Positions 31,599-49,286 of a DNA stretch of 64,000 nucleotides are shown piece by piece. Origin of the DNA: Pacificibacter marinus (GTDB taxonomy: Bacteria > Pseudomonadota > Alphaproteobacteria > Rhodobacterales > Rhodobacteraceae). The translations under genes and the position numbers were made by a program. The stretch spans positions 372,001 to 436,000 of the forward strand of contig NZ_FNZV01000001.1 in NCBI RefSeq assembly GCF_900109555.1, in the 5' to 3' direction. Position 1 is the stretch's first letter. Every line of letters starts with the position of its first letter. The notes under the pieces are model-generated. The model was not told the origin of the DNA. It was given only the letters and a program-made list of their open reading frames with translations, and made no database searches.

Positions 31599-32446
31599 AG
31601 CGCATCTCCCTGAATAGCGTCGCGAAGTTCCGACGGATTAAGATAAGCATTTGTAAAGATTTTCCACGCATCCAAGCCCTGTTCAAAGAAAAGCTCATAC
31701 CCCGAAATTACCGTAAGACTGGCCAGCTTGGCATCTTGCAAAAACTGTGTTTCTACAGGGGTATAGACAGCATCAAAGGCCCAACTTGCCCCCTGCATAG
31801 CGTCAGCAGGCAAAGAGGATCCACCAATCCCAACCATGCCCAACGGGGTGCAATTGATAAGTCCATCCGCATCTTTGGCGGCAAGGACCGCATCGCTTGA
31901 TGTTTCGATCAATGTGTCGGCCCCAAGGGCGCTCAAAGCCTGAGCAAGAGCCTCTACTTTGGCCGCATCAAGGTCGACACATCGAATGGTTTTCGCATTA
32001 AGGGCAACCAGACCAAAAGCCACAGCCTTGCCCACGCCACCTGTGCCAATAAGGCAAACTGTACCGGGGGGTTGCCCCCCCCGAACACTTCGGTAGGCAT
32101 TCATAAACCCAGTGTAATCCGTGTTGAACCCTTTGGGACCATCAGCGTCGAAAACGACCGTATTGACCGCACCGATGGCACGGACCAACGGGTCGCAAAC
32201 GGTCACTTTGGACGTTACCAATTCTTTGTAAGGGTAAGTGACATTGATCCCGCGAAATCCATCAATGCGCGCTTGCTGAAAGACGTCATCAAACGAAAGG
32301 CCCATGTCCTTGGGGATGAGCCTGTCATATGTGACATCTAATCCAGCCAATCGTCCAGCGGTGCGATGTAGCCGCGGCGATTTAGACCGAACAATATTGT
32401 CGCCGATCAAACCAAGCTTGATGGTATTTGTATGAGTGGATGTCAT
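31595..32446 (-). CDS. Shikimate/quinate dehydrogenase (AroE family)
   Basis: 283 aa. The substrate motif NVTYPYKE keeps the catalytic Lys, NTDYTGF keeps the catalytic Asp, and LIGTGGVGKAVAFGL is the nucleotide-binding glycine loop. AroE relatives oxidise shikimate to 3-dehydroshikimate, or quinate to 3-dehydroquinate. VDLDAAK after the second strand has an Asp at the position that in some members prefers NAD over NADP, which suits a catabolic role. Start ATG 32446 forms TGATG with the tctA stop. It lies between a TTT transporter and QuiC, so catabolic shikimate/quinate use is more likely than aromatic biosynthesis. Confidence 0.9.
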   Translation of the reverse strand: MTSTHTNTIKLGLIGDNIVRSKSPRLHRTAGRLAGLDVTYDRLIPKDMGLSFDDVFQQARIDGFRGINVTYPYKELVTSKVTVCDPLVRAIGAVNTVVFDADGPKGFNTDYTGFMNAYRSVRGGQPPGTVCLIGTGGVGKAVAFGLVALNAKTIRCVDLDAAKVEALAQALSALGADTLIETSSDAVLAAKDADGLINCTPLGMVGIGGSSLPADAMQGASWAFDAVYTPVETQFLQDAKLASLTVISGYELFFEQGLDAWKIFTNAYLNPSELRDAIQGDAL

Positions 32447-33951
32447 CACGATGTCTTTCTAAACAAGCGTTTTTTCAGTATCGCCCAAAGCGGTGTTTGG
32501 CTCACAAAAATCAAAATCACGGCCACGAACAGCACCAAAGAAAGAGGGCTTGTGAAGATGCCATGGAAAAACCGGCCCAGTTCTTCACGCTCAGAAATGA
32601 TGGCACGGCGCCAATTGTCATCAAGCAGACGTGACAGGATGACGCCCAAGATCACAGGCCCCAAAGGATAGCCGTAATGACGCATGAAATAACCAAAAAC
32701 ACCAAAGCCGAGCATCCAATACACATCGGTGATTGAATTGTTCACCGCGTAGGCCCCGACAATCGATAAAAGCAGGATGAGAGGAATAATGATTGACCGC
32801 GGTATCTCAACGATCTTGGTGAATATCTTAATGCCGGTTAGGCCAAAAATTAGCATGAAAATATTTGCGGTGAATAAAGCACCAACAATGAACCAAAACA
32901 TATCTGGCTGATCGATCATCAGCATAGGTCCGGGGTTCAAACCGTGAATGAAAAGCGCGCCAATCATGATTGCGGTGACCGCATCACCGGGGATACCCAA
33001 AGTCATCATCGGAATAAACGCGCCACCAACAGCCGCGTTATTGGCTGTTTCCGGCGCAACCAGCCCTTCCATTGCGCCTTGGCCGAATGGCACCTTAGGT
33101 TTCTTAGTCACCCGTTTTGCGTGATCATAGGCCATCAAAGCCGCGATATCGCCGCCTGTTCCTGGCAAGGCCCCTATAATGACCCCAATGGTTGACGTCT
33201 GCAGGGAAAGCGGCAGGTATTTTTTGACAGTCCCAAACGAGGGGACAATTCTGTCAATCTTTTGGCGAACCGCTTTCATGTTGACGTTTTGCAATTGCAT
33301 CAACGCCTCAGACACGCCGAACATACCGATCATCACGGCGATAAAAGAAATCCCACCTTCCATGATCTGAAAATCAAACGTGAACCGTTCCGTAAACGTC
33401 AGCGGGTCACGCCCTACGGCACCGATGGCAATGCCCAAAGAACCCGCAAAAATACCTTTTATCATCGATCCGCTGGACAAAGACCCAACCAAAAGGATGC
33501 CTAAAACCGCCAACAGCATGTAATCACGTGGCTGAAAGCTCAGCGCGAATTCGGACACAAACGGGGCTGCAAGAGCCAAGACCAAAATACCAATCAAACC
33601 GCCAAAGAAAGACATGACTGTCGTGACGCCGATTGCCTGACCAGCCTCGCCGCGTTGCGCCATAGGATAACCATCCATGGCGGTGGCAATCGCCGAAGGC
33701 GCGCCCGGAATGTTCAGCAGAATTGCTGTACGCGACCCGCCATAAACGCCCCCCATATAGATGCCGACCATCAACGAAATCGCGGGATATACATCCCACG
33801 AAAAAGTAAAGGAAATCAGGATGGACACGGCCATGGTGACCGAAAGACCGGGAATGGCGCCGATATAAATACCAACAAAGGTGCCCACACCGACAAGCAC
33901 AAGCAGATCAAGTTGGGTGAAAACTGTAAATATAGCGAGAAACGTATCCAT
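32446..33951 (-). CDS. tctA: Tripartite tricarboxylate transporter large membrane subunit
   Basis: 501 aa with about ten to twelve hydrophobic segments, the full TctA length. Family landmarks are GAIPGLSVTMAVSILI near residue 30, ALPGTGGDIAALMAYDHAKR mid-protein and MMTLGIPGDAVTAIM. Part of a TctCBA system that takes up carboxylates using an ion gradient. The catabolic genes that follow suggest quinate or shikimate as substrate. Overlaps tctB by one base. Confidence 0.93.
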   Translation of the reverse strand: MDTFLAIFTVFTQLDLLVLVGVGTFVGIYIGAIPGLSVTMAVSILISFTFSWDVYPAISLMVGIYMGGVYGGSRTAILLNIPGAPSAIATAMDGYPMAQRGEAGQAIGVTTVMSFFGGLIGILVLALAAPFVSEFALSFQPRDYMLLAVLGILLVGSLSSGSMIKGIFAGSLGIAIGAVGRDPLTFTERFTFDFQIMEGGISFIAVMIGMFGVSEALMQLQNVNMKAVRQKIDRIVPSFGTVKKYLPLSLQTSTIGVIIGALPGTGGDIAALMAYDHAKRVTKKPKVPFGQGAMEGLVAPETANNAAVGGAFIPMMTLGIPGDAVTAIMIGALFIHGLNPGPMLMIDQPDMFWFIVGALFTANIFMLIFGLTGIKIFTKIVEIPRSIIIPLILLLSIVGAYAVNNSITDVYWMLGFGVFGYFMRHYGYPLGPVILGVILSRLLDDNWRRAIISEREELGRFFHGIFTSPLSLVLFVAVILIFVSQTPLWAILKKRLFRKTS

Positions 33952-34526
33952 CAGGATGCTCCTGCGGACATAAGGTTGCGAAAATACTGAATGAACTCAG
34001 CTTCGGGCAGAACGCCTGCGGGCAAAAGCACGGTAAACACCACACGAAAAACGATCCAGATCACAACCAAAGATCCTAATGCAACGGCCAGCGTGTAACC
34101 CCAGCCCCGCTTGGCAAGCACTTTGATCGCAACAATGAGAAACACTGCAGCCGTCAGGACAAAACCCAGTGGTTGCAAAAGCAAACCGAACACAATCAAA
34201 AAGCCAATAAAAAGAACCACTGTTCCGGGCAGAATATCTTTGGAAAGCGTTTCGGTTGTGACCTTTTTCAAGCGGGCCGTACGCAAGACCACCGCAAAGG
34301 CCGAAATGGCCATCACCAGCGTTGTGGCCATTGGAATGGCACCGGGGGCGGATAAGGCATCAAATCCAGAGATGCCATAGGCACTGTAAAGCAAAAACAG
34401 GCTGGCGAGTGTCAGAAATATTGCGAAAGCCAATTCGCCGGGGCGTTGTTTTTCGACATATCCACCAGGTATTGCATCAGATGTGCCATCGTGATGATCC
34501 ATGTCGCCTCTAAACTCAGGATGCAT
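33951..34526 (-). CDS. tctB: Tripartite tricarboxylate transporter small membrane subunit
   Basis: 191 aa with four hydrophobic segments, typical of TctB. Start ATG 34526 has AAGGAG 7 bases upstream; the frame extends to 34586 without a ribosome site. The long hydrophilic N-terminus before the first segment (HPEFRGDMDHHDG) is slightly unusual. Works with TctA in the membrane. Confidence 0.85.
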   Translation of the reverse strand: MHPEFRGDMDHHDGTSDAIPGGYVEKQRPGELAFAIFLTLASLFLLYSAYGISGFDALSAPGAIPMATTLVMAISAFAVVLRTARLKKVTTETLSKDILPGTVVLFIGFLIVFGLLLQPLGFVLTAAVFLIVAIKVLAKRGWGYTLAVALGSLVVIWIVFRVVFTVLLPAGVLPEAEFIQYFRNLMSAGAS

Positions 34527-34578
34527 GATCCACTCCTTATTAGGGATTGATCCGACTCCTCCGCCGGACTGTAAAGCG

Positions 34579-34605
34579 CCGCCCACAATTGTATGGTGTG
34601 GGCGG
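34579..34605 (-). promoter_or_regulatory. Intercistronic hairpin between tctC and tctB
   Basis: Nine-bp perfect stem CCGCCCACA / TGTGGGCGG with a 9-base loop, 48 bases after the tctC stop. Likely stabilises tctC mRNA relative to the membrane-subunit part. Confidence 0.6.
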
Positions 34606-36608: not shown

Positions 36609-37475
36609 TCATTTAGAAGATGCATCTATGGCAGTTCGATAAAGTGAAATCTGCTCTGCGACATAGTCCAAAAATGCATCACCATCCTTGTCACCAAGGT
36701 CCTTATCACCACAATCCAAAACGGCCTGAAACGTATCAATCAACGCTGTGGCAACGATGACACCATCCGCCACCTGCCCGACGTCCGCCGCCATCTTGGG
36801 TGTTTTCACACCAAACCCGACCATGACAGGCAATGTGCTTACCTCTCGGCAGCGCGCCACACCTTGTGCAATCGCGTCAATAGATGCCGAAGGGCCGCCA
36901 GTTGGGCCCACCACGGGGATGCAATACAAAAAGCCGCCCACAGCCGGATGATCTGACGTGAAATCCTTGGCCTCAAGTGTCGGGGCCGCCATAGGAATCA
37001 TGAAAATCCCCTGTTCCGCCAAAGCATCAAGCAAAGCGTTTGCTTCTCGTAAAGGGAAATCACCAGCGATTAACCCATCCACACCAGCAGCGGCGGCACG
37101 TTCGGCAAAACGCTCATACCCCATCACAGCCAATGGGTTGGCATAGCCCATCAACACCAGTGGTGTCGTCGTATCGGTTTGGCGAAACGCCGCGCAAAGC
37201 TCCAGCGTACGGGTCAAATTTCCGCCTGCAGCAAGTCCGCGAATGTTGGCTTTTTGGATGGTCGCGCCATCAAGGATAGGGTCCGAAAACGGGTGACCAA
37301 TTTCGATCAGGTCAATGCCAGACGCAACGAACCTATGCATCAAAACCAGAGACGCCTCAAATGACGGATCACTCGCAACCGTGTAGGTCACAAACGCAGG
37401 TCTGCCCTCGCGTTTGAGCCGCTGAAACATCACATCAATCCGGCGCGTGTCAGGTGTCGTTGCGGCTTGCATCAT
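36609..37475 (-). CDS. TrpA-like aldolase (tryptophan synthase alpha homologue) 1
   Basis: 288 aa TIM barrel of the TrpA family. Both catalytic acids are kept: E58 and D69 in EIGHPFSDPILDGATIQ (E49 and D60 of Salmonella TrpA). Active-site positions F22 and Y175 correspond to Tyr31 and the Tyr of GFLYCIP; the GFG and PTG loops are present. The last phosphate loop is altered (VATAL instead of SGSAI). TrpA cleaves indole-3-glycerol phosphate by retro-aldol to indole and glyceraldehyde-3-phosphate. Four-base ATGA overlap with the TrpB-like gene. The operon has no other trp gene; it carries a sugar ABC transporter and kinase, so a catabolic aldolase role is more likely than tryptophan synthesis. 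Confidence 0.85.
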   Translation of the reverse strand: MMQAATTPDTRRIDVMFQRLKREGRPAFVTYTVASDPSFEASLVLMHRFVASGIDLIEIGHPFSDPILDGATIQKANIRGLAAGGNLTRTLELCAAFRQTDTTTPLVLMGYANPLAVMGYERFAERAAAAGVDGLIAGDFPLREANALLDALAEQGIFMIPMAAPTLEAKDFTSDHPAVGGFLYCIPVVGPTGGPSASIDAIAQGVARCREVSTLPVMVGFGVKTPKMAADVGQVADGVIVATALIDTFQAVLDCGDKDLGDKDGDAFLDYVAEQISLYRTAIDASSK

Positions 37476-38671
37476 GGCGTGGTCTCTTCCAGTAAAGTTT
37501 CGATATCTTTATCGCCAGAAGATTGCGCCATCACGACGATAGATTGATCTGGGGACAATTGCGCGGCAAGCTGCTCTGCTGCGGCCAATGCGTGCCCTGC
37601 TTCAAGACACAGCAAAATGCCCTCGCGCTGCGCAAGACGCAAAACCGCGTCCTTTGCTGCGGCGTCTGAAATGGCCATTGTTTCTACACGGCCAGTTTCG
37701 ACAAGATCAGCCAATTGCGGCGACGAACCGGGATAGGACAGTCCCGGAGCAATAGATCCCGTCGGAATAATTTGACCGTGCACATCAGACAAGACCATCG
37801 TTTCAGCCCCATGAAAGATGCCGCGACGCCCACGTCCTAAACGCGCCGAATGTGCGCAAGCTTCGCCGCCTGTGCCTGCGCCTTCGACGGCCACCAAGCG
37901 TGCTTGTGTGTCCCCCAAAAAGGCGGAAAACAACCCGATGGTAGAAGACCCGCCGCCCACAGCTGAAACATAGATTGCGGGCGCCAGCCCGTGGTCGATC
38001 AATTGCAGACGAGTTTCTCGCCCGATCACAGCTTGGAAGGCTGCGACCATTTCAGGGTAAGGGTGCGGGCCAATCGGGGCGCCAGCCACATAGGTGGTTG
38101 TGTCGCTATGCCCCATCCAATGGCGTGTCGCAGCACTGGTCGCAGCACTCAGCGCACGGTCCGCATCTTTCACGATCTGAACCTGCGCCCCAAACAAACG
38201 CATTTTGTTAACTGCACTGGGTTGGCGTGCGGCGTCACTTGCGCCGATGTAGATTGTGCATTCCATCCCGAAACGTGCCGCGACCGCCGCCGTTGCGATT
38301 CCGTTTTGCCCAGATCCAGTGTCACACACGACAGCATTGAGCCCCATGCGCTTGGCCAACAGGCATTGCCCCACAGCGGAATTGGCATAATTGCCGCCGT
38401 TGAAAGTTAGATCATCGCGTTTCAAGACAATTTGAGCACCGCCTTCGCGGGTCGAAAAGCGTGGAATGTCGAAAAGTGGCGTTGGTCGGCCCACGTAACG
38501 ATTGAGAAGCAAAGTCAGCGTTTCGCGGAACTCCGCATCGCGCCATGCGTCTTGAAACGCGGTTTCTAACCGATCCAGAACCGGCAACAAAACCGGTGCC
38601 ACGAATTGTCCGCCGAAGCTGCCGAAACGACCCGCTTTGGCGATGATGTGTGTCTCATGGCCCATGGTCAT
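37472..38671 (-). CDS. TrpB-like protein lacking the PLP lysine (probable pseudoenzyme)
   Basis: 399 aa, full TrpB length, aligning without gaps to Salmonella TrpB over the core. In true TrpB the PLP lysine K87 lies in GGAHKTNQ; here the same stretch reads GGNYANSA, so H86 becomes Asn94 and K87 becomes Tyr95 (codon TAT at 38387-38389). Glu109 is Asp (CDTGSGQNG) and the pyridine-N serine region LSGRGDKD reads QSSGDKD. The phosphate loop GGGSSTIG, the domain KMRLFGAQV and GPHPYP are kept. It therefore probably cannot make tryptophan and may instead hold or activate a TrpA-like partner. Four-base overlap with permease and TrpA-like genes on both sides. Confidence 0.85.
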   Translation of the reverse strand: MTMGHETHIIAKAGRFGSFGGQFVAPVLLPVLDRLETAFQDAWRDAEFRETLTLLLNRYVGRPTPLFDIPRFSTREGGAQIVLKRDDLTFNGGNYANSAVGQCLLAKRMGLNAVVCDTGSGQNGIATAAVAARFGMECTIYIGASDAARQPSAVNKMRLFGAQVQIVKDADRALSAATSAATRHWMGHSDTTTYVAGAPIGPHPYPEMVAAFQAVIGRETRLQLIDHGLAPAIYVSAVGGGSSTIGLFSAFLGDTQARLVAVEGAGTGGEACAHSARLGRGRRGIFHGAETMVLSDVHGQIIPTGSIAPGLSYPGSSPQLADLVETGRVETMAISDAAAKDAVLRLAQREGILLCLEAGHALAAAEQLAAQLSPDQSIVVMAQSSGDKDIETLLEETTP

Positions 38672-39600
38672 CGCCCCTGCGCACCGGTTCGGCGCACCAA
38701 CACGGCAGCCAGAATGATCAAGCCAGTGATAATATCTTGCATAAACGTAGAGACGCCAAGGATTGTCAGCCCATTGCCCACCACCGCGATGATCGCCGCG
38801 CCAACCAGCGTGCCGGGAACATTTGCCTCCCCTTCACGAAAGGCCGTCATCCCCAGAAAAACAGCGGCATAGGCAGACAATAAGAAACCTCCACCGCCCG
38901 TTGGGCTGGCGCTGCCGATGCGTGCCGTGAGCAACATCCCAACAAGTGCCGCCAAAACCGCAGATGCGATAAAGGCAACCATGGTGTTGGATACAATCCT
39001 CACCCCCGCCAAACGTGCAGCTTCTCGGTTGCCCCCAATCGCATAAAGGCGGCGACCGATTTCGATTTTATCAAGCACCAGCCAAGCCATGATCGCCACG
39101 CCGATCAACCAAAACGTCAAGATCGGGATGCCAAAGCTTTTGCCACGTGCAAGATCGCGAAAGCCTGCGGGAATATCGCCAAACAACGTCGCGCCATTTG
39201 AAAGCCAAAATGTAATGCCGCCGATGATTGTCCCAACCGCGAGCGTCGTGATGAATGACAGGACTTCAAACCGCGCAACGATGAACCCCGAGACAGCGCC
39301 AAACACACCCGCAGCAGCAAGAACCGCAAGGCAAGCCAGAGGCGCGGGGACCCCCAGCTTGAATAAGAACACCGAAAAGATGCCGCCAAAGGACACGACA
39401 GAAGCGGTCGACAGGTCGAATTCTCCGACGGCCATCACCACAGTGGCACCGATTGCAACAATCGCCAAAAGGGTCATTTGCTGCGTGATATTGATAAGAT
39501 TGGACGCAGTGCCAAAAGCCTGCGGGGATGCGATTGAAAAGGCGGCGATGATCGCCACAAGCGCCACCAAGGTCCCGTAGCGGCGGACAAAGGTTGTCAT
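38668..39600 (-). CDS. Ribose-type (CUT2) ABC transporter permease
   Basis: 310 aa RbsC-like permease with eight to ten hydrophobic segments. Characteristic motif GGNREAARLAGVRI and early AVGEFDLSTASVVSFGG are present. Translationally coupled (ATGA) to both the ATPase upstream and the TrpB-like gene downstream. This tight coupling of a sugar-type transporter with trp-like genes is unusual. Confidence 0.92.
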   Translation of the reverse strand: MTTFVRRYGTLVALVAIIAAFSIASPQAFGTASNLINITQQMTLLAIVAIGATVVMAVGEFDLSTASVVSFGGIFSVFLFKLGVPAPLACLAVLAAAGVFGAVSGFIVARFEVLSFITTLAVGTIIGGITFWLSNGATLFGDIPAGFRDLARGKSFGIPILTFWLIGVAIMAWLVLDKIEIGRRLYAIGGNREAARLAGVRIVSNTMVAFIASAVLAALVGMLLTARIGSASPTGGGGFLLSAYAAVFLGMTAFREGEANVPGTLVGAAIIAVVGNGLTILGVSTFMQDIITGLIILAAVLVRRTGAQGR

Positions 39601-41153
39601 ACTTGGGTCTCTTTCTCTGTCTGGTGTTGAAAGGCTGCGTCAATGACGCGCGTTGGAGTAAGGCTGTCGCCGGTCAGTTCGGCGGTGATTTCACCGCTTG
39701 CAAGCACAAGCACACGTGCGCTCAGCGCCATAAGTTCGTCCATGTCACTGGTCGTCATCAGCACGGCCGCCCCCTGTGCCGCAAAGCGACGTGCAAGCGC
39801 GTGAATTTCTGCTTTGGCACCGACATCAACGCCGCGACTTGGTTCATCAAGGATAAGCAATCGTGTTGCCTGTCCGAACCAACGCCCGAACAAAAGCTTT
39901 TGTTGATTGCCCCCCGACAGTGTCAGTGGGCCATCCCAAGGCGAGCCCATTTTAACCGATAATGTTGATTGTACAGCTTCGCTGCGTTCAACCATCTTAC
40001 GGCGGCTTGTCCATGGCATCCCCGCCTGATGGCGGACTTTGGGCAGTTGCGACACAGCAAGATTATCAGCGATTGAGCGACTGGTGATCAGCCCTTCATT
40101 GCGCCGATCCTCGGGGACATAGGCCGCGCCTTTGGCAATACGATCACTGATACGACCAGCGCGCAGCACTTTGCCATCCAGCTCGATCTGTCCGCCAGCA
40201 TGTGGCTGTGCGCCCCAAATCAGTTTCATCAATGAAGATCGCCCAGCGCCCACCAAACCGTAGAGACCGAGAATTTCGCCAGCCCGAATATCGAAAGACA
40301 CTTGAGTGCCGCGAGATCCGTAAGGCACATCGCGCACACGCAACACCACAGGGCTATCGGGCGCGGGCATCTGTGCAGCGCCGCGCACCTCTTCGCGTCC
40401 AGACATCAGATGTACCAGCCCAGCGCGATCCGTCTCGGCAATACGCCCTGCCCCGACAGTGCAGCCACTGCGCAGTACCGTAAAGCTGTCGCAAATCTGC
40501 ATAACCTCATCAAGGCGGTGCGAGATGAAAATAACAGCCACGCCTTTGTCCGACATCTTTTTGACGGCTTCATGCAGACGTGCGGCTTCGCCATCAGACA
40601 AAGATGCGGTAGGCTCATCCATGACGATCAAACGCGCAGGTGCGCCAATGAGCGCGCGGATGATTTCAACCAATTGCTTTTGCCCTGTCGTCATTTGCCC
40701 CACAGGAATATCCAGCGGCAAATCAGGCGCAATACTGCGCGCGGTCTCTTCAATCGTGCGCCGCATGGCTGCGCGGTCAATGAACGGCCCCTTGCGTGGA
40801 TATGGTCGCCCGATGAACGCGTTTTCTACGGCCGTGAAATACGGCACAAGGCTAAGTTCTTGGTGGATAAACCGAAAGCCCAAAGACTCGGCATGTTGCA
40901 CCCCAGCGATGGTCACGGGCAAACCATCGACCAATATTTCACCCGCATCAGGCACGATCAGCCCTGACAGGGTTTTGATCAAGGTCGATTTGCCTGCACC
41001 GTTTTCTCCGACCAAGCTGTGAACGGAGCCAGCCTCAACCACGAGGTCAGCACCATCAAGCGCCTTGGCGCCGCCAAAGTGCTTTTTCAATCCACGCAGC
41101 GTCAAAAAGGCATGATCTGCGCGCAAGGTTAGATCCGGCTCCGGCTTTGTCAT
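39597..41153 (-). CDS. Ribose-type ABC transporter ATPase (two domains)
   Basis: 518 aa RbsA/MglA-type protein with duplicated nucleotide-binding domains. N-domain has Walker A GENGAGKST, signature TTGQKQLVEI and Walker B LIVMDEPTASLS. C-domain has degenerate Walker A GLVGAGRSS, signature LSGGNQQKLLFGRW and Walker B LLILDEPSRGVD. Two-domain structure is usual for CUT2 systems, in contrast to the single-domain xylG of this window. Overlaps the binding-protein gene by four bases. Confidence 0.93.
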   Translation of the reverse strand: MTKPEPDLTLRADHAFLTLRGLKKHFGGAKALDGADLVVEAGSVHSLVGENGAGKSTLIKTLSGLIVPDAGEILVDGLPVTIAGVQHAESLGFRFIHQELSLVPYFTAVENAFIGRPYPRKGPFIDRAAMRRTIEETARSIAPDLPLDIPVGQMTTGQKQLVEIIRALIGAPARLIVMDEPTASLSDGEAARLHEAVKKMSDKGVAVIFISHRLDEVMQICDSFTVLRSGCTVGAGRIAETDRAGLVHLMSGREEVRGAAQMPAPDSPVVLRVRDVPYGSRGTQVSFDIRAGEILGLYGLVGAGRSSLMKLIWGAQPHAGGQIELDGKVLRAGRISDRIAKGAAYVPEDRRNEGLITSRSIADNLAVSQLPKVRHQAGMPWTSRRKMVERSEAVQSTLSVKMGSPWDGPLTLSGGNQQKLLFGRWFGQATRLLILDEPSRGVDVGAKAEIHALARRFAAQGAAVLMTTSDMDELMALSARVLVLASGEITAELTGDSLTPTRVIDAAFQHQTEKETQV

Positions 41154-42070
41154 TTACAGTCGACTCCGAGACTTTCCACGGTGATCGGAACCGCCGCCAC
41201 GTAGATTTCGTCGCTTTCAGCGGTGCCACCTGCGAGAATTGTCTCAAGTTGCTGCGCGCCGATTTGCGCCATGCCTGCAAAATCTTGCCGCAAAGACATT
41301 TTGTAATGGGTGCAAGACTCGATCATATCCACGGCTTGCTCGTTGCCGTCGATCCCCATGATAATGGCTTTTGACTCTGGTGCTTCTGCTTCAAAAGCCA
41401 GTTCAGCGCCGATGCCTGGATCGTCAAACGCGGCCCAAACGCCATCAATTTGATCGCCATATTGGCGCAGGATGTTTTCCATCGCCACACGCCCATTGTC
41501 CACGGGGCCCGGTACCTGAACAAAATGTTCGGCAATCACATTGATATCGGGATATCTGGCCAATGTTGCGTCCAGACCCAATTCACGTTGGTAGACACCC
41601 GGATGGGCCGAATGGAAGAACTTGACGATATTGCCTTTGCCGTCGAGCGCCGTGAACAAGGCTTCGGACAATTGCACACCAAGATCAAAGTTGTTCGATG
41701 TCACATTCACAGCGACATTTTCAGCCTTTGCCCCATCAAGCGAGATCACTGGAATGCCCGCGTCAGCCGCCAATGCCACTTGATCCGCGATCAATTCAGC
41801 CGTAGTTGAAACCAACACAATCGCATCCGCTTTTGCGTTAACCGTGTCTTCCATACGCGAGGCCAACTGCGCGAAATCATTGCGGGTGTCGATAACCGTC
41901 ACGTTCCAACCACGCGCCTCGCCCTCGGTTTTGAACGCCTGAACCATATCGTTTGTGGGAATGGAACTCATGTAAGGCGTCAAAATATTGACATCCGTCG
42001 CGAGCGCAGGAAGGCTGCTACAGGTCGCAAGCGTCAGCGCAGTAAGAGAAACTTTCAAAGTCGTCATCAT
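41150..42070 (-). CDS. Sugar-type periplasmic binding protein (family 1/4)
   Basis: 306 aa with signal peptide (MMTTLKVSLTALTLATCSSLPALA) and the two-lobed periplasmic-binding fold of RbsB type. Recognisable elements are GWNVTVIDTRNDFAQLASRMED, KADAIVLVSTTAEL, PVISLDGAK, and FDDPGIGAELAFEAE. AAGGAG lies 5-6 bases before ATG 42070. Substrate unknown. Family members bind pentoses, hexoses, polyols and autoinducer-2. Its neighbours suggest a phosphorylatable polyol or glycosyl compound. Confidence 0.9.
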   Translation of the reverse strand: MMTTLKVSLTALTLATCSSLPALATDVNILTPYMSSIPTNDMVQAFKTEGEARGWNVTVIDTRNDFAQLASRMEDTVNAKADAIVLVSTTAELIADQVALAADAGIPVISLDGAKAENVAVNVTSNNFDLGVQLSEALFTALDGKGNIVKFFHSAHPGVYQRELGLDATLARYPDINVIAEHFVQVPGPVDNGRVAMENILRQYGDQIDGVWAAFDDPGIGAELAFEAEAPESKAIIMGIDGNEQAVDMIESCTHYKMSLRQDFAGMAQIGAQQLETILAGGTAESDEIYVAAVPITVESLGVDCK

Positions 42071-42091
42071 ATATCTCCTTATAAGTTGGGG

Positions 42092-43579
42092 TTAAGTTGG
42101 CATCTTTTTATGATGCTCTTTGGTGTTGAAAACAGTAATCGGTTCCAGCGCGTCAATCGCGCGCAAATAGGCCTCAAACATGGCGTCATATCGGTCTTTT
42201 TGGCGAAGGTCTGGTTCGAAAATCGCCTCGACCCGCGTCATGTTTGGCACGGCACTTTTGATATCAGGAAACGCGCCCAAACCAACGGCAGCCATAATCG
42301 CAGCGCCAAGACACCCGACATCGCCATATTCGAACCTATGCAGCGCAATACCCAGAACGTCTGCACGAATCTGGCTCCATAAATCTGAGCGCGCACCGCC
42401 ACCGCCGTATAGCAAATAGTCAGGCCGCGTTCCTGCAGCTTGGATCAAAGCATCAAACAAATGACGCGCGGACAGGGCAACGCCTTCCAAGACCGCCATG
42501 GCAAACTCCGGACCTGCCGATCGGCTGTCCAGCCCGATAAACGATCCACGTATGTTAGAATTCCAAATTGGCGCACGCTCGCCTTCGAGTTGCGGCAAGA
42601 AAAGCACGTTGCTTTGCGCACGGTCCGCTTGCTCAGCCAGCGCGATCAATTGCGCAGGTGTCTTTTCCACAACGTCGCCCCACCAACGCAGACTGTCCGC
42701 GCCACTTTGGGTTGGGCCTGCGTTCACCACCAGCTTGTCTACCGTGGCAAATGTGACAACCCCAGGCGCGCCAATACGTTCGCTGCCCACCACTGACAAA
42801 ATTTCACTTGTACCGCTGACATACATGCCCTGCCCCGGCGCAAAAACACCGCAGCCAAACAGGTTGCCCCATGCATCCATCGTGCCGGCAACCACAGGCA
42901 CTTTGCGTACATGACTGCCAAGCGCCATCTCTCCTACGACATCGGTGAAAAAGCGCAATGGGGGCAACCGCTCTGCAGCCCCCGGCATCAAATCAAGAAG
43001 TGGTGCGATGTATTCCAGATCCGCGCCCACCTGGCCGAAAGACGTGATGGGATCAGAAACGGCAGCCCCCGTCAGTTTGAAGAGGCAATAATCCTTGGGC
43101 GACAAAACATAGCGCGTGCGATCCCAAATATCAGGATGTGTTTGTGCCATCCATTGCATTTTGGCCATAACATGACTTGCGCCAATCGGCATATCCGTGC
43201 CCCACCAAGCCTGTTTGAGCGCTGGCGAAATACGATCATTCAGACCCTTAGCTTGATCAGCCGAACGCACATCTTGCCATGTGATTGCGGGACACAGCGG
43301 TGTGCCTGACGCATCAACAAACACTTCAGTATTGACCTGACTGCACATGCCGATGGCCGCCACGCAATTGGGATCGCGGTTCTGAAGCAAGGCATCGATC
43401 GCATCGCGAATGCCATCCAGCCAATCTTGTGGATTTTGCTCCACCAATCCTGGGCCAGGGCGCGAGGTGGGATAGGACCTGCTCCAATGATCCACAACCG
43501 TACCATCAATGCCAAACAGACCCGCCTTCACGGCTGTTGAGCCGATGTCAAAACCGATGATTAATGTATCGTCACGCAT
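42092..43579 (-). CDS. FGGY-family carbohydrate/polyol kinase
   Basis: 495 aa, full FGGY length. The N-terminal ATP-binding loop is GFDIGSTAVKAGLFG. GTMDAWGNLFG carries the catalytic aspartate, and YGGGGARSDLWSQI is the adenosine/FGGY signature. Closest type looks like xylulokinase; the family also includes glycerol and erythritol kinases. Start ATG 43579 overlaps the TrpA-like stop by 8 bases; a GTG three codons earlier is possible. It would phosphorylate whatever the ABC system imports. It could also replace the lost xylB of the xylose operon. Confidence 0.9.
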   Translation of the reverse strand: MRDDTLIIGFDIGSTAVKAGLFGIDGTVVDHWSRSYPTSRPGPGLVEQNPQDWLDGIRDAIDALLQNRDPNCVAAIGMCSQVNTEVFVDASGTPLCPAITWQDVRSADQAKGLNDRISPALKQAWWGTDMPIGASHVMAKMQWMAQTHPDIWDRTRYVLSPKDYCLFKLTGAAVSDPITSFGQVGADLEYIAPLLDLMPGAAERLPPLRFFTDVVGEMALGSHVRKVPVVAGTMDAWGNLFGCGVFAPGQGMYVSGTSEILSVVGSERIGAPGVVTFATVDKLVVNAGPTQSGADSLRWWGDVVEKTPAQLIALAEQADRAQSNVLFLPQLEGERAPIWNSNIRGSFIGLDSRSAGPEFAMAVLEGVALSARHLFDALIQAAGTRPDYLLYGGGGARSDLWSQIRADVLGIALHRFEYGDVGCLGAAIMAAVGLGAFPDIKSAVPNMTRVEAIFEPDLRQKDRYDAMFEAYLRAIDALEPITVFNTKEHHKKMPT

Positions 43580-44348
43580 CAAGGCCACTCCGCAAATCTA
43601 TCAATAAAGACGCCAACGCCTGCGGCCCCTCAAGTGCGGCCCGCAAAACTTGCGATCCGACAATCACCCCATCTGCGCCAAACGCAAGAGCCTCGCGTGC
43701 TTGCATCCCATTCGAAATTCCAAATCCCAACAAGATTGGAACACTCACACCAGCGGCACGCAGATGCGTGATCCTATTGCGGCTTTCAGGGTCCAGAACT
43801 TTTCGCGGTCCTGTCTGGCCTGCACTCGCCTGCAGCATAACGTAAAACGCTGCCTTTTGGGCAGCCGTCACCCCCTGCTCTGTAAGCGGCACTTCAATAA
43901 ACGCCGAAGGAGCAACACCCGCGCCAATTGCAGTGTTCTGGATTTGTTGTGTAATAGCGTCATTGTTGCGAGAGACGATCAGACAACTGTCTAACCCCGC
44001 CCAAAACTCAGCATCAGCATACCCAGCATGTTCAGCTTCACCATAGCCCATCAGCAAGGCTTTCGGAGCGATAGTGCGCTTGGCCAAGCGTTCCATAATC
44101 GCATCCAAATTTGCCCGAGCGCGGTCAGAATTGGCGCGTTTCATAGAGGCGCGTACATCTGGCCCATCCATAAACGGATCGACGGCTGACAGCCCAATTT
44201 CCAACACATCGACCCCTTGGTCGGCATAAACGTCGATCATATCCAACGGTATTTTAGGATCTCCCAGAGGGAAATAGCAGCTCAACAGCGGCTTGTCGCT
44301 TTCGAAGTGAGGCGAGGCTTTCCGTAAAGATCGTCGCGGCATCTGCAT
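43572..44348 (-). CDS. TrpA-like aldolase 2
   Basis: 258 aa TrpA-family TIM barrel. E50 and D61 in EIGLSAVDPFMDGPDV match the catalytic pair E49/D60. The phosphate-binding loops SAGQTG, GFGIS and GVIVGSQV are closer to canonical TrpA than in copy 1. The proline/serine of the usual PFSDP is AVDP, and Tyr175 is Met. Start ATG 44348 has AAGGA five bases upstream; a TTG at 44369 is less likely. First structural gene of the operon, directly before the FGGY kinase. Paralogue of the TrpA-like gene at the distal end; sequence differences suggest division of labour. Confidence 0.82.
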   Translation of the reverse strand: MQMPRRSLRKASPHFESDKPLLSCYFPLGDPKIPLDMIDVYADQGVDVLEIGLSAVDPFMDGPDVRASMKRANSDRARANLDAIMERLAKRTIAPKALLMGYGEAEHAGYADAEFWAGLDSCLIVSRNNDAITQQIQNTAIGAGVAPSAFIEVPLTEQGVTAAQKAAFYVMLQASAGQTGPRKVLDPESRNRITHLRAAGVSVPILLGFGISNGMQAREALAFGADGVIVGSQVLRAALEGPQALASLLIDLRSGLDA

Positions 44349-44498
44349 GTCTATCCTTGTCAAACCCAACGCGATTTACCGCATTCGGCAGTGCTTTAAA
44401 GTTAAAGGAAAGAGAAATGAGATGTTGGGTTTGGTCAAGAGACAGAATGCGACACGCAACCGTATTGTGCAGGATGCGGATAAAACTACAGGCACGCG

Positions 44499-45458
44499 CT
44501 ATTCTTTTAAACCAAAACCTCTCCGTCGGTCGGCCAAAGGGAGCACCCCAAAGGTTTTTCGGTACTGCCCCGAGAACCGGCTTTGATGCGGCATACCAAC
44601 TTGTTTGGCCACATCCGACAAGGGCAAGTTTCCAGTTCGGATCAAGTGACGCGCAGCGTCCATGCGGATACGCATCAACACCTCATAGGGTGGCTTTTGA
44701 TAATACCGCTGAAACCCGTCATAGAGAGCCCGCTCAGAAACGCCGACATCTTGCGCCACATCTGCAATCGCCACAGGCATGTGAAAACGCCCACGTAAAA
44801 TTTCAACAGCAAGGTGGACATGACGCGGTGTGGCATAAAGGCGTTCGGGCACGGGTGACCCATCGCGAAAATACGGTAAGTTTGAAATCAGCAAATCAAC
44901 GACAGTATCAATCTTGCGCTGAAACGCCTCTGTGTCGGCAGAATCGAAGCGATCCACAACATGTGCCAAACCACGCATCGCCTGCGTCAGAGATTTCCCG
45001 TGTGCTGTCGCAAGTTCGACCACAGGATCAAACACAATGTCCGCACTCATCCGACGGTGCGCCCGCGCTTCAAACGCAGTTTGGATAGACCTTTGGCTTA
45101 TTTGCAGCATCCATTGGTAAGTATCAGGACGCCACCGCGAACGAAATTTCTGCCCCGGCGACAAAAAGAGCGCCCGTCCCGGAAGAGACAGCGCTTGCTG
45201 CTGACCAATGGCGATATCAACGCCACCCCGAAGGGGCATCTCGAACATGTAAAAATCTTCAAACCCATTCGCTTGTACTTCGATCTCAGAGCCATAGCTC
45301 AAAGTATTGAAAGCTTGTTTGCCCAAAGAAGCCGAGACATGAGAAAACTCAACAGAACGCATACCAAATGGCACCAAACGATGGCGGCAAAACGATTGTG
45401 AAAGATGCGCTTCTGCATCTTCGAAGCGACCACTGGAAAAGGTGAGCGTAGAGTTCAT
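44499..45458 (-). CDS. AraC-family transcriptional regulator
   Basis: 319 aa. The N-terminal AraC_binding_2-like domain (about residues 40-190, GFEDFYMFEMPLRGG) is followed by a C-terminal double helix-turn-helix (about 220-315, VAIADVAQDVGVSERALYDGF and LSDVAKQVGMPHQSRFSGQYRKTFG). Start ATG 45458; the open frame extends 36 codons further without support. It lies 150 bases before the TrpA-like/kinase/ABC operon on the same strand and probably activates it. Confidence 0.87.
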   Translation of the reverse strand: MNSTLTFSSGRFEDAEAHLSQSFCRHRLVPFGMRSVEFSHVSASLGKQAFNTLSYGSEIEVQANGFEDFYMFEMPLRGGVDIAIGQQQALSLPGRALFLSPGQKFRSRWRPDTYQWMLQISQRSIQTAFEARAHRRMSADIVFDPVVELATAHGKSLTQAMRGLAHVVDRFDSADTEAFQRKIDTVVDLLISNLPYFRDGSPVPERLYATPRHVHLAVEILRGRFHMPVAIADVAQDVGVSERALYDGFQRYYQKPPYEVLMRIRMDAARHLIRTGNLPLSDVAKQVGMPHQSRFSGQYRKTFGVLPLADRRRGFGLKE

Positions 45459-45575
45459 GGGCCTGCAATGCTTAGGTAAGTGCAGACACAGCCGTGGGAC
45501 TGTCTGCGTGCAACAAGTATGCGTCAGAATCAAAATCTTGCAAGTGCAGGCATCATACGTGTGCAAATTGGGCGA

Positions 45576-46601
45576 TCAGAACGACCCAGCCCCATCCATT
45601 CGATGGGCCGCCCGAAGGGTCTCAACTGGCGTGCAACCATACTTTTTGCGATAAATCTCAGCAAACCGTCCAAAATGGAAAAAGCCAAGCTCGGCAGCAA
45701 CACCCGTCACGCGCGTCTCTTGAGAGGGGTTGGACAATTCCTCCCATGCCTGTTCAAGTCGCAAATCACGCAGAACAGTCATCGGCGAGCGTCCGTATCT
45801 AGTTCGAAACGCCCCTTGCAGATTGCGCACGCTGGTCCCTGCGGCACCCGCGATATCTTCAATCATGATCGGTGCACGCAGATGCTCGCGCATATAGCTT
45901 TCGGCGGTACGGATAATGCGCGGCATCGGGCCCGTTTGCCCCAATGAGACATCAGGTAAATTGTGCGATTGGGTTTGCAGCAGTCCGACCAACAAGGTGC
46001 GCTCTAACTGCTTACTCAAAAGTGTCCCTCCTCCCAAAAGCACATCGCCTCGCTCTGCTTCTTTCATCACATAATTCACAATCCCCAGAAACGCTTTGCC
46101 TTCCCCGCTGCGCACATCGTTGGCACCCGCGAATTGAAGCGTGGCCCCTGCCGGCAAACCAATCTCGGCACGCGCCACCTCGATCAAAGCGCGCTTTTCA
46201 ATTTGGATCATCACCTGCACACAACATTCGCTCCAAATCATAGTCGTCTGAGCTTCGGGGTTGATCACGCCACTGGTCCCCCCCCCAATGTCATGCTGGT
46301 TGGCCCCGTTGTTAATCGACGCATGCCCCCGAACCGGAAACTGGAACAGATAGAAGTCCTCTAAAGCGCCGGGTGAGATCAAAGTCTTGGCGCCATACGT
46401 CATGACGTTGACCGACAAATCCGTGCCACTGATGCGGTTATGCTGCGCAGCAAAACGCTGCTGGCCCATGATTTCGAGCCGATGATCACAATAAACCTCG
46501 GCCACCTCGGCACGTGCTTCATCAATATCATAACTCGCGAAAAGCGCATGATTGCTCATCGGAAGCGTGCTGATGTTTGCGGTTGAGTGAAACAGATCCA
46601 T
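45576..46601 (-). CDS. AraC-family transcriptional regulator (IifR-like context)
   Basis: 341 aa. N-terminal AraC_binding_2 domain (GALEDFYLFQFPVRG) and C-terminal AraC HTH (IEDIAGAAGTSVRNLQGAFRTRYG, then FFHFGRFAEIYRKKYG). Start ATG 46601 is fixed by a very strong AAGGAGG 4-5 bases upstream; the open frame reaches 46961 but without a site. Divergent from the SDR/flavin-monooxygenase operon; in the Acinetobacter iif indole operon an AraC regulator holds the same place. It is homologous to the AraC gene downstream, so the pair may be a duplication split between the two operons. Confidence 0.87.
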   Translation of the reverse strand: MDLFHSTANISTLPMSNHALFASYDIDEARAEVAEVYCDHRLEIMGQQRFAAQHNRISGTDLSVNVMTYGAKTLISPGALEDFYLFQFPVRGHASINNGANQHDIGGGTSGVINPEAQTTMIWSECCVQVMIQIEKRALIEVARAEIGLPAGATLQFAGANDVRSGEGKAFLGIVNYVMKEAERGDVLLGGGTLLSKQLERTLLVGLLQTQSHNLPDVSLGQTGPMPRIIRTAESYMREHLRAPIMIEDIAGAAGTSVRNLQGAFRTRYGRSPMTVLRDLRLEQAWEELSNPSQETRVTGVAAELGFFHFGRFAEIYRKKYGCTPVETLRAAHRMDGAGSF

Positions 46602-46635
46602 ACGCCTCCTTCCAAGAGATTGATTGAGCCTTAAA

Positions 46636-46647
46636 GCAATTAATTGC
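46636..46647. promoter_or_regulatory. Palindrome in the AraC / SDR divergent promoter
   Basis: Perfect 12-bp palindrome GCAATTAATTGC in the 141-base spacer. A second element, TTTGGCCAAAC at 46696-46706, resembles CTTGACCAAAC (minus strand, 44429-44439) upstream of the TrpA-like operon, sharing TG-CCAAAC. These are candidate AraC targets; chance cannot be excluded. Confidence 0.35.
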
Positions 46648-46742
46648 GTAATTCGGATAGTGGTTGCGCACAAAGGATAGCGCAGGTTTCGACACTTTGG
46701 CCAAACTTTTCTCACAAAATTGAAACAGGATGGAACACTGGC

Positions 46743-47519
46743 ATGCGTGGATTGACAAACAAAGTGGCAATAGTACCCGGCGGTGCAACAAAAATTGGCG
46801 TAGCTGTCGTCGATGCTTTCAAAGCACATGGCGTGAAAGTTGTTGTTGCAGATATTGACGCCGAAAGCGGTGCAAAGCTGGAATGTGATGGTGTGAAATT
46901 TGTGCGCGCTGACCTGCGCTCGGATGAAGATCTTGCGCGCGTGGTTGCTGAGACCAAACAAGCGTATGGCCGGATCGATTTTTTGGTCAACGTGGCAGCG
47001 ACGTACCTAGATAACGGCGCTGAAAGCACGCGCGCTGAATGGTTGGAGGCGCTGGATGTGAACCTTGTCGGTTCTGTGATGTTGATGCAGGCAGCCCACG
47101 ACGAGCTTAAGAAAAACAAAGGTGCTATCATCAACTTTGGATCAATTTCTGCACGCGTGGCTCAAGCTGGACGCTGGCTTTACCCTGTTTCCAAAGCCGC
47201 CATTTTACAACTCACCCGCAATCAAGCGATGGACTTGGCCCCAGACGGAATTCGCGTCAACGCGGTGTCGCCGGGCTGGATTTGGTCAAACATCATGGAC
47301 AATTTGTCCGGTGGTGATCGTGTGAAAACTGACAAAGTTGGCGCAGATTTTCATCTGCTCCCGCGTGTGGGCGACCCCGAAGAAGTCGCCAATGCCATCA
47401 TGTTTTTATGCTCTGACGAGGCCAGCTTTATCACTGGCACCGATTTGCGTGTCGACGGTGGGTACACCGCAATGGGACCAGAAGCTGCCATCGCAGCAAT
47501 TCCGCGACTCATCGACTGA
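46743..47519 (+). CDS. Short-chain dehydrogenase/reductase
   Basis: 258 aa classical SDR. The nucleotide loop is degenerate (VPGGATKIGVAVV in place of TGGxxGIG). The catalytic set is S in NFGSISA, Y in RWLYPVSK and its K four residues on. Ends with FITGTDLRVDGGY, the usual SDR C-terminal motif. Start ATG 46743 begins at MRGLTNKVAIV, typical for SDRs. First gene of an operon with a StyA/IifC-type monooxygenase and flavin reductase; the equivalent SDR of iif operons (IifB) oxidises the indole dihydrodiol. That role is inferred. Confidence 0.85.
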   Translation: MRGLTNKVAIVPGGATKIGVAVVDAFKAHGVKVVVADIDAESGAKLECDGVKFVRADLRSDEDLARVVAETKQAYGRIDFLVNVAATYLDNGAESTRAEWLEALDVNLVGSVMLMQAAHDELKKNKGAIINFGSISARVAQAGRWLYPVSKAAILQLTRNQAMDLAPDGIRVNAVSPGWIWSNIMDNLSGGDRVKTDKVGADFHLLPRVGDPEEVANAIMFLCSDEASFITGTDLRVDGGYTAMGPEAAIAAIPRLID

Positions 47520-47563
47520 CATCACCCACAAAACAACAAAAATAACGCCAACAGGAGATAAAA

Positions 47564-48793
47564 ATGAAACGCATTACCATCATCGGAGGGGGCCACTCTG
47601 GCCTACAATTGGGCATTGGCCTGTTACAAAAAGGCTATGATGTCAAAGTCATCCAAGACCGCACTGCAGATCAAATTGCGAACGGCCGCGTCACCTCTTC
47701 GCAATGCCAATTCGATGCCTCACTACAACACGAGCGCGATTTGGGCCTACATTTTTGGCAAGACGACTGCCCACCAGTCGAAGGTATTGCTTTTGCGGTT
47801 GCAAACCCCGAAGGGCCGGGCAAGGCCATCGACTGGGCCGCACGTCTTGAAAACCCCGGACAATCTATTGATCAGCGTGTTAAAATTCCACGCTGGCTGG
47901 CGGAGTTTGAGCGCCTTGGTGGTAAACTTGAGATCAGACTTGCCGATATCCCTTTGCTCGAATCCGAAGCAAAATCCCGCGATTTGGTCATCGTTGCCTC
48001 AGGAAAAGGCGATATCAGCAAACTGTTTGAACGCGATGCTGAGCGCTCGCTATTTGATGCGCCACAACGCGCTTTGGCCTTGACTTACGTGCACGGTATG
48101 ACGCCGCGTGATGAATTTTCTGCTGTAAATTTCAACCTCATTCCAGGTGTAGGCGAGTACTTTGTATTCCCGGCTTTGACCAAATCTGGCCCTTGCGACA
48201 TCATGGTATTCGAAGGCATTCCAAATGGCCCCATGGACTGTTGGCATGACGTGAAAACACCAAAAGATCATCTGGCAAAATCCCAAGAAATTCTACGAAC
48301 TTATTTGCCTTGGGAAGCCGACCGTTGCGGTACTGTTGAACTGACAGATGAGGCAGGAATGCTTGCTGGGCGTTTCCCGCCAACGGTGCGCAAACCTGTC
48401 GGAATACTGCCATCAGGTGCAAAAGTCCTTGGGCTTGGCGATGCGGTTTGCTTAAACGATCCGATCACGGGACAAGGCGCGAACAACGCCTCAAAGGCAG
48501 CAATGGTGTATCTCGATGCCATTTTGCGCCACGGTGATCAGCCCTTTGATGAACCTTGGATGGCGGCAACGTTTGAACGGTTTTGGGAATATGCTCAATG
48601 GGTTGTACGCTGGACAAACATGATGCTTTTGCCACCGCCCCCCTTTGTTTTGGATATCATGGGGTCCGCACAAGGACTGCCAGACCTGGCGGGACGTATC
48701 GCAAATGGGTTTGATGACCCGCGTGATTTCTTCCCATGGTTTGCTGAACCCGCTGCGGCCACAGACTACCTTTCCAGCCTTCGAGCCGCGTAA
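47564..48793 (+). CDS. Styrene/indole monooxygenase-type flavoprotein
   Basis: 409 aa FAD-dependent oxygenase component of the StyA/IndA/IifC family (group E flavoprotein monooxygenases). The N-terminal Rossmann loop is IIGGGHSGLQLGIGL. SSQCQFDASLQHERDLG is the family hallmark near residue 50. GLGDAVCLNDPITGQGANNAS is the second FAD motif, with substrate-site residues following. Using reduced FAD from its partner reductase it epoxidises styrene or indole. AGGAG lies 7 bases before ATG 47564. The neighbours (SDR, AraC) are those of indole-oxidation operons rather than styrene operons (no StyC/StyD). Confidence 0.87.
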   Translation: MKRITIIGGGHSGLQLGIGLLQKGYDVKVIQDRTADQIANGRVTSSQCQFDASLQHERDLGLHFWQDDCPPVEGIAFAVANPEGPGKAIDWAARLENPGQSIDQRVKIPRWLAEFERLGGKLEIRLADIPLLESEAKSRDLVIVASGKGDISKLFERDAERSLFDAPQRALALTYVHGMTPRDEFSAVNFNLIPGVGEYFVFPALTKSGPCDIMVFEGIPNGPMDCWHDVKTPKDHLAKSQEILRTYLPWEADRCGTVELTDEAGMLAGRFPPTVRKPVGILPSGAKVLGLGDAVCLNDPITGQGANNASKAAMVYLDAILRHGDQPFDEPWMAATFERFWEYAQWVVRWTNMMLLPPPPFVLDIMGSAQGLPDLAGRIANGFDDPRDFFPWFAEPAAATDYLSSLRAA

Positions 48794-48794
48794 T

Positions 48795-49286
48795 ATGTCT
48801 ATCGATATTCAAACATTTCGGGATACGATGGGTCTGTTTCCCGGCGCAGTCACGCTGATCACAACCGGTCAAGGGGCACTGCGTCGTGGGATCACGGCCA
48901 CGGCCGTGTGTTCCGTCTCGGACAGTCCGCCAAGCCTGTTGGTTTGCGTCAATCGTAAAACCGGAACTTGGGCTGAAATCGTCAGGTCCGGATTATTTTC
49001 CGTCCAGCTATTGGGACAGGATCATGCCGATATCGCCATGGCCTTTGCAGGGGCAAAAGGGGTCAGCGGGTTGGACAAGTTTGACACCGGAAACTGGACC
49101 AGCTGTGCAGCAGCACAACCCCGTTTAACCGATGCTCTTGCGAGTATATCTTGCCAAGTCAGCAGCACCACCGAGGCCGGCAGTCATACGGTGTTTATCG
49201 CACAGATAAAAGATGTCGCTGTCGCAAACGGTGAAGCACTGATCTATGCCCAAGCAAAGTTCCAACGCCTCGCCATAGCGCATTAA
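48795..49286 (+). CDS. Flavin reductase, partner of the monooxygenase
   Basis: 163 aa flavin-reductase-like (StyB/HpaC) protein, full length for the family. Motifs FRDTMGLFPGAVTLITT, GITATAVCSVSDSPPSLLVCVN and FSVQLLGQDHADIAMAFA are typical. Reduces FAD with NADH and passes it to the oxygenase encoded one base upstream (48793 stop, 48795 start). A longer frame to 48645 lies inside the oxygenase gene and is not real. Confidence 0.9.
   Translation: MSIDIQTFRDTMGLFPGAVTLITTGQGALRRGITATAVCSVSDSPPSLLVCVNRKTGTWAEIVRSGLFSVQLLGQDHADIAMAFAGAKGVSGLDKFDTGNWTSCAAAQPRLTDALASISCQVSSTTEAGSHTVFIAQIKDVAVANGEALIYAQAKFQRLAIAH

Follow-up and report, generated by a model that had tools for sequence, protein, structure and literature searches.

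The window analysed here is a 64,000-nucleotide stretch of the genome of the alphaproteobacterium Pacificibacter marinus (contig NZ_FNZV01000001.1, positions 372,001 to 436,000), and its own numbering is used for coordinates unless a contig or locus is named. It carries a minus-strand operon, here called the trp-like operon, in which relatives of both tryptophan synthase subunits are combined with a sugar-type ATP-binding cassette (ABC) transporter and a kinase, next to a divergent operon for an indole-type oxygenase. The regulator gene AraC2 (44499-45566, minus strand; PF14525 and HTH_18) precedes the trp-like operon, which then runs in the order: TrpA2, a predicted divergent TrpA-type lyase (43572-44369; PF00290, 77 bits); an FGGY-family sugar/polyol kinase (42092-43588; FGGY_N/FGGY_C, 107/106 bits); a periplasmic sugar-binding protein (41150-42070; PF13407, Peripla_BP_4, 119 bits); a two-domain sugar ABC ATPase (39597-41153; two stretches of PF00005); a CUT2-type sugar ABC permease (38668-39600; PF02653, BPD_transp_2, 115 bits); a TrpB-like pseudoenzyme (37472-38671); and TrpA1, a predicted TrpA-type indole-glycerol-phosphate lyase (36609-37475; PF00290, 220 bits) coupled translationally to the TrpB-like gene. 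Four junctions are 4-base ATGA overlaps, and the TrpA2 and kinase genes overlap as well. The divergent plus-strand operon encodes a short-chain dehydrogenase/reductase (SDR) in the IifB position (~46743-47519; adh_short_C2, 204 bits), an indole-type (group E) flavoprotein monooxygenase in the IifC position (47564-48793; Smoa_sbd, 155 bits) and a flavin reductase in the IifD position (~48795-49286; PF01613, 124 bits). It has its own AraC gene, AraC1 (45576 to ~46601, minus strand; PF14525 and HTH_18), a putative regulator transcribed divergently from it. The starts of AraC1, SDR and flavin reductase were re-read by eye within longer mechanical open reading frames (ORFs). The Pfam/NCBIfam matches of the locus proteins are far above chance, and the gene content, coordinates, strands and tight coupling of the minus-strand operon given in a first-pass annotation of this DNA were all found as described there.

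The seven-gene core from TrpA2 to TrpA1 is present in full, with an unchanged gene order, in nine of nine alphaproteobacterial genomes with the operon: that of the window (G000), G010 (taken as P. marinus F2R14), G005, Phaeobacter sp. HF9A, the Rhizobiales AFS022961 and AFS011520, Martelella mediterranea IOP_24, G713 and G597. With presence set at E <= 1e-105 or 1e-110 in the draws, the TrpB-like gene was found in 3 of 20 genomes of the genus, in 1 of 394 drawn from the window's family and 1 of 385 drawn class-wide (the window's own genome each time), and in 5 of 297 drawn from the family around Martelella. A scan of genome contigs with two peptide patterns yielded 34 loci, of which five had an identity of 70-86% and the other 29 one of 39-46%; this tally is a lower bound because two peptide patterns miss divergent members. 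Among viral contigs, 83 stretches with the patterns held no relative, and the plasmid records matched by TrpB-like (127) or TrpA2 (36) were all below 60% identity. Transposase-like ORFs, recognised by eye on both sides of the locus in G010 (L035 1562-2383 and 15743-16249) and ahead of it in Phaeobacter HF9A (L038 1778-2635), suggest its horizontal movement. In G005 a pyrroline-5-carboxylate reductase-like gene follows TrpA1 (L036 10935-11735; 272 bits, cut-off 254), and beside the AFS011520 operon (L068 12185-18838) lie an IclR-like regulator and a nucleoside-type ABC transporter, both assigned by eye, and a cyanuric acid amidohydrolase-family enzyme (442 bits, cut-off 360).

By overall homology the TrpB-like protein clears the TrpB family cut-off (TIGR00263, 416.6 bits against 392). 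At the lysine that holds pyridoxal 5'-phosphate (PLP) as a Schiff base, K87 in what we take to be the Salmonella typhimurium numbering used for this protein throughout, the alignment has tyrosine in all nine operon copies (residue 95 in the window) and lysine in 55 of 55 other TrpBs; the TrpB segment GAHKINN has become GGNYANS. Further replacements are H86 by Asn, H115 by Asn, D305 by Ser or Ala (Ser in the window copy) and K167 by Ser (7/7 copies counted), and the indole-activating E109 is Asp in seven copies and Glu in two. PLP binding through the lysine is no longer possible, and the protein should not make tryptophan; the first-pass label of a dead TrpB is right at this key residue. The gene is under strong purifying selection: by a simple Nei-Gojobori script its ratio of non-synonymous to synonymous substitution rates (dN/dS) was 0.028-0.065 in three pairs, with dS saturated for the pair G000-G010, and the ratios of its partners were higher (0.09-0.12 for TrpA1, 0.10-0.24 for TrpA2). 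Decay was ruled out by complete reading frames in all nine genomes and by this low dN/dS (0.03-0.07), which indicates that the gene is maintained; in G597 one stop was flagged in the search-matched stretch, yet the ORF is complete. In a phylogenetic tree with 47 other TrpBs the nine copies form a single, separate clade (100/100 support) with a long branch; the remaining eight of the 55 had been omitted (six near-copies, one incomplete, one not needed).

TrpA1 scores as an ordinary TrpA (TIGR00262, 194 bits against a cut-off of 102) and keeps the equivalents of E49, D60, Y102 and Y175, numbered as we presume for TrpA, in nine of nine copies. TrpA2 is remote, with a trpA equivalog score of 81.8 bits, under the cut-off of 102; its E49, D60 and the TGPR and VGS segments are kept in every copy. 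The predicted TrpA2 model (mean predicted local distance difference test, pLDDT, 87.7; six-row alignment) has as its closest folds BX1 (1tjr; Z 29.2, root-mean-square deviation 2.2, 242 residues aligned) and TrpA (3cep; Z 28.2, 2.3, 240 aligned), which in this model is a tie. According to one study, the catalytic pair for cleavage of indole-3-glycerol phosphate (IGP) consists of E49 and D60, both being needed for TrpA activity, and TrpA by itself is very poor until TrpB switches it on, whereas BX1 is active alone (PMC12930369). The kept catalytic residues of both TrpAs, together with the missing PLP lysine of the TrpB-like partner, would fit a release of free indole.

The transporter has all parts of a CUT2 set: the best NCBIfam match of the permease is a ribose permease, under cut-off, and the ATPase is of AraG/XylG/RbsA type, under the equivalog cut-offs. 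For the binding protein the nearest solved sequences are 4rs3 and 5hko, which we take to be polyol complexes, and its predicted model, at a pLDDT of 73.9 too modest for a reading of the ligand, matches CUT2 binding proteins, by fold binders of ribose/arabinose type. The kinase scores 251 bits against the XylB model (TIGR01312; cut-off 380) and has a region, GTMDAWGN, that is invariant in nine of nine genomes.

Among solved structures the partner oxygenase is closest to 7z4x (593 bits), which we take to be an indole monooxygenase; two entries named styrene monooxygenase score 125 and 135 bits, and the StyA profile NF045732 gives 207.6 bits, under its cut-off of 550. PMC13101512 gives the fingerprint of group E indole monooxygenases as S46-Q48-M50-V/I73-I76-A96. 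Numbered by eye, S46, Q48, V73 and I76 are present in all nine monooxygenases, M50 in five (Gln in the other four), and around position 96 there are indels and Ser/Asn/Gly, so that the alignment is ambiguous there; the styrene-type fingerprint is absent.

An indole-monooxygenase-type gene is present in all nine genomes with the trp-like operon, in each case accompanied by an SDR gene, with 67-79% identity to the window's copy in the first six other genomes examined and 66-68% in G713 and G597. In the background, such a gene occurs in 15 of the 394 genomes from the window's family (13 at >=66% identity including its own genome, hence 12 of 393 others), and in 35 of the 297 from the Martelella family (26 at >=64% including all five operon genomes, hence 21 of 292 others). 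Within the genus it was found in 9 of 20 genomes, all three operon genomes among them; in one of the nine, G018, it is in two pieces (G018:C1:266074-267311), perhaps by a frameshift. The co-occurrence in five of five operon genomes of the 297-genome draw has a chance probability of 3.5e-6, a figure that counts related genomes as independent, three of them known beforehand; the two new ones alone give 253/43,071, or ~0.006 by hand arithmetic. The operons adjoin in four of the nine genomes, in three arrangements: the monooxygenase operon is divergent in the window, lies at the opposite end of the trp-like operon in G010, and in G713 and G597 opens a single co-directional run of 11 genes (flavin reductase, SDR, monooxygenase, AraC2, TrpA2, kinase, binding protein, ATPase, permease, TrpB-like, TrpA1). 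Chance linkage was rejected, on the 9/9 co-occurrence, the draw backgrounds and the adjacency. The first-pass annotation had left room for coincidental adjacency and had held that its proposal would fall if no other genome had the operon close to an indole oxygenase; the gene-neighbourhood survey speaks against the former and found the opposite of the latter.

The nine AraC2 proteins form one clade (100/100), and the gene adjoins TrpA2 in eight of nine loci. The exception is Martelella, which has no AraC2 by the trp-like operon and carries the orthologue, sister to the AraC2 of G713 (97/96), beside the monooxygenase, an arrangement that would result if a fused cluster such as the one in G713 broke after AraC2. 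In eight of the nine genomes the monooxygenase operon has an AraC1-type gene as its neighbour, none being seen there in G713. An 18-base operator-like motif, TATCCRYATCCTGCRNAA, whose pattern was drawn by eye from the loci compared here, lies between AraC2 and TrpA2 (44465-44482, minus strand). It precedes TrpA2 exactly in eight of the nine operon loci, including Martelella although AraC2 there sits by the monooxygenase, and is degenerate in G597; within the 64-kb window it is the sole match at <=2 mismatches, against 0.05 expected. An operator shared by both operons was considered and rejected: the best 18-base matches between the promoters did not exceed those of 20 shuffles, G010 being the exception with 15 where the shuffles reached at most 13. 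The trp-like and monooxygenase promoters carry different motifs, and the monooxygenase-side pattern matched only two of the loci.

A sensing or regulatory function of the TrpA1/TrpB-like pair in ordinary sugar uptake, with the oxygenase as a coincidental hitch-hiker, is very improbable. The lost PLP lysine would suit such a role, as would the best matches of kinase and transporter to ordinary pentose families; but both TrpAs keep their catalytic residues in all nine genomes, and the three linkage arrangements, the regulator swap in Martelella and the five-in-five co-occurrence, with the reservation on related genomes given above, all tell against it.

The genomes are better described, in our opinion, by an inducible pathway for the breakdown of an indol-3-yl polyol, with indole-3-glycerol as the likeliest candidate; it would pass through the TrpA lyases and the TrpB-like protein to the oxidation of indole, and from the sequences we give this reading a probability of roughly 0.55. 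The binding protein and ABC transporter would import the polyol, and the FGGY kinase would phosphorylate its terminal hydroxyl to IGP or a homologue. TrpA1 and TrpA2 would then perform an E49/D60-dependent retro-aldol cleavage to indole and glyceraldehyde-3-phosphate, the TrpB-like protein acting as a structural and allosteric partner that switches TrpA1 on and so leads to indole release. The triose phosphate would enter glycolysis, and the indole would be oxidised by the iifC/D/B-type monooxygenase, flavin reductase and SDR, whose genes lie beside the trp-like operon or at another place in the genome. Much of this pathway was sketched in the first-pass annotation, of which the linkage to indole oxidation proved real and the TrpA catalytic residues were found intact; we infer its substrate, kinase specificity and enzyme activities, along with the direction of flux. 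The putative role of the TrpB-like protein as activator of TrpA1 was absent from that annotation and has a direct precedent in plants: in core eudicots TSB-like, a TrpB made inactive by changes at other residues, frees indole by activating TSA (PMC12727527).

Several observations weigh against this pathway. The TrpB-like protein lacks K167 and D305, residues tied to α-β signalling, and since the D-to-E change of the plant protein is also unmatched, activation of TrpA1 may fail or work differently. Neither the kinase, nearest to xylulokinase, nor the binding protein, nearest by fold to the ribose/arabinose type, is diagnostic. At the genus level the co-occurrence with the monooxygenase is by itself not significant (3/3 against 6/17, p 0.07), and in four of the nine genomes the operons are not adjacent, with no regulator swap seen: they are ~484 kb apart in G005 and on separate contigs in HF9A, AFS022961 and AFS011520. 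The known iif route needs IifA, a cofactor-independent oxygenase, to reach anthranilate; the comparison with the iif cluster made here covers its other four genes, which stand together in the window and in relatives. Finally, TrpA2 has Met in place of Y175 in nine of nine copies, and for this reason and its score under the trpA cut-off its substrate may carry a different ring.

The last point bears on a possible, though doubtful, variant with the same logic, in which the operon would cleave the phosphate of a different indolyl or aryl polyol (a longer indolyl alditol, an indole substituted on its ring or an electron-rich arylglycerol), with TrpA2 as its lyase, and the monooxygenase would act on the freed ring. 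The combination in TrpA2 of a kept catalytic pair and phosphate-site segments with the altered residue 175 would agree with it, as would the sugar- and polyol-binder matches of the binding protein, and the presence of two unlike TrpAs suggests that there are two substrates or diastereomers. It is opposed by the canonical indole-site residues kept in TrpA1 and by an oxygenase that has four of six indole-fingerprint positions throughout and not the styrene-type signature.

An unlikely alternative is tryptophan scavenging, whereby imported indoleglycerol would be rephosphorylated and its indole passed to the normal tryptophan synthase, the monooxygenase clearing only the excess. Ordinary TrpB genes with the lysine are present too in G005 and G010 (42-43% identical to TrpB-like), and the operon and the monooxygenase lie apart in five of the nine genomes, Martelella included. 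Plain scavenging, however, would need no dedicated TrpA, and the co-directional fusion in G713 and G597, with the constant co-occurrence, points to degradation. The single TrpB match of the window's genome had suggested that it lacks a normal tryptophan synthase; this was rejected, its trp genes being apparently hidden in an anomalous stretch of contig C26. A third TrpA match of this genome falls there, at ~250,000-273,000 (L096, L097, L034). On one strand of this stretch of ~23 kb, T makes up only 4-7% of the bases; the flanks are normal as far as they were examined. Compared with the syntenic region of G010/G005 in nine short alignments, A is kept at 577 of 598 positions and T has become A, C, G or T at 97, 129, 95 and 93; the changes look like replacement by the alphabetically lower of two bases. 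It is probably an assembly or ambiguity-code artefact that hides the genome's own trp genes, the cause being a guess.

Near the monooxygenase of G005 there is a salicylyl-CoA 5-hydroxylase/oxidoreductase-like gene (L078 5187-7565; bifunctional salicylyl-CoA 5-hydroxylase, 1211 bits, cut-off 1078). A 2-aminobenzoyl-CoA route for anthranilate is mentioned in PMC6221969, and the G005 protein could, on weak grounds, serve a route of this kind. In the window, an operon at 29712-34586 contains a fusion of sugar isomerase and 4-hydroxyphenylpyruvate dioxygenase, a shikimate-dehydrogenase-like gene and TctABC-type genes, two of these assigned by eye; it probably serves the use of aromatic acids and is unrelated.

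In the open-licence literature nothing on this gene set, on a bacterial TrpB pseudoenzyme or on indoleglycerol catabolism was found among the matches listed, and no lead to natural sources of indoleglycerol among the best 10 of 141. We consider the chances even that the locus represents a new bacterial catabolism of indolyl polyols, in which a cofactor-less β pseudoenzyme activates α as an independent parallel to the plant TSB-like/TSA pair and a second, non-canonical TrpA handles a second substrate or stereoisomer. If so, marine and soil bacteria would have an undescribed route to indole-carrying polyols, e.g. dephosphorylated intermediates of the tryptophan pathway; a bacterial tryptophan-synthase pseudoenzyme kept by selection without its PLP lysine would be a natural test of the activation of α by β; and the kinase-lyase pair would be of use for indole production.

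In its general plan the locus resembles pentose/polyol operons with a CUT2 ABC transporter and an FGGY kinase, which follow a transporter-kinase-aldolase logic under AraC control; the aldolase step is of TrpA type here and a sugar-phosphate aldolase there. With the stand-alone lyases BX1 and IGL it would share the TrpA fold, where BX1 is the best match of the TrpA2 model in the tie with TrpA, and free indole as product; it differs from them in the missing Y175 of TrpA2, in an identity to BX1 of 20-22% in structural alignments and in having a kinase and a transporter as neighbours. The iif, ind and ipo-dho clusters for indole likewise bring together an AraC regulator, an SDR, an indole monooxygenase and a flavin reductase; they begin at free indole, and in the parts of the sources consulted importer, kinase, TrpA and TrpB-like are unmentioned (PMC6221969, PMC12538310), as is an importer-kinase-TrpA set in the description of AraC-controlled indole degradation (PMC12538310). 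The closest parallel is the plant TSB-like/TSA pair, where, according to PMC12727527, a TrpB paralogue without tryptophan synthesis has been kept and frees indole through activation of TrpA, as it may do here. The plant protein lost its function at E105 and D300 (Thermotoga maritima numbering), by changes to Ala (Ser/Pro) and to Glu that are unmatched in the bacterial copies; these have Asp/Glu and Ser/Ala at E109 and D305, their equivalents, and Tyr for the PLP lysine. The settings also differ: the plant pair belongs to the biosynthesis of defence compounds (PMC12727527), the bacterial one to what we regard as a catabolic import operon.

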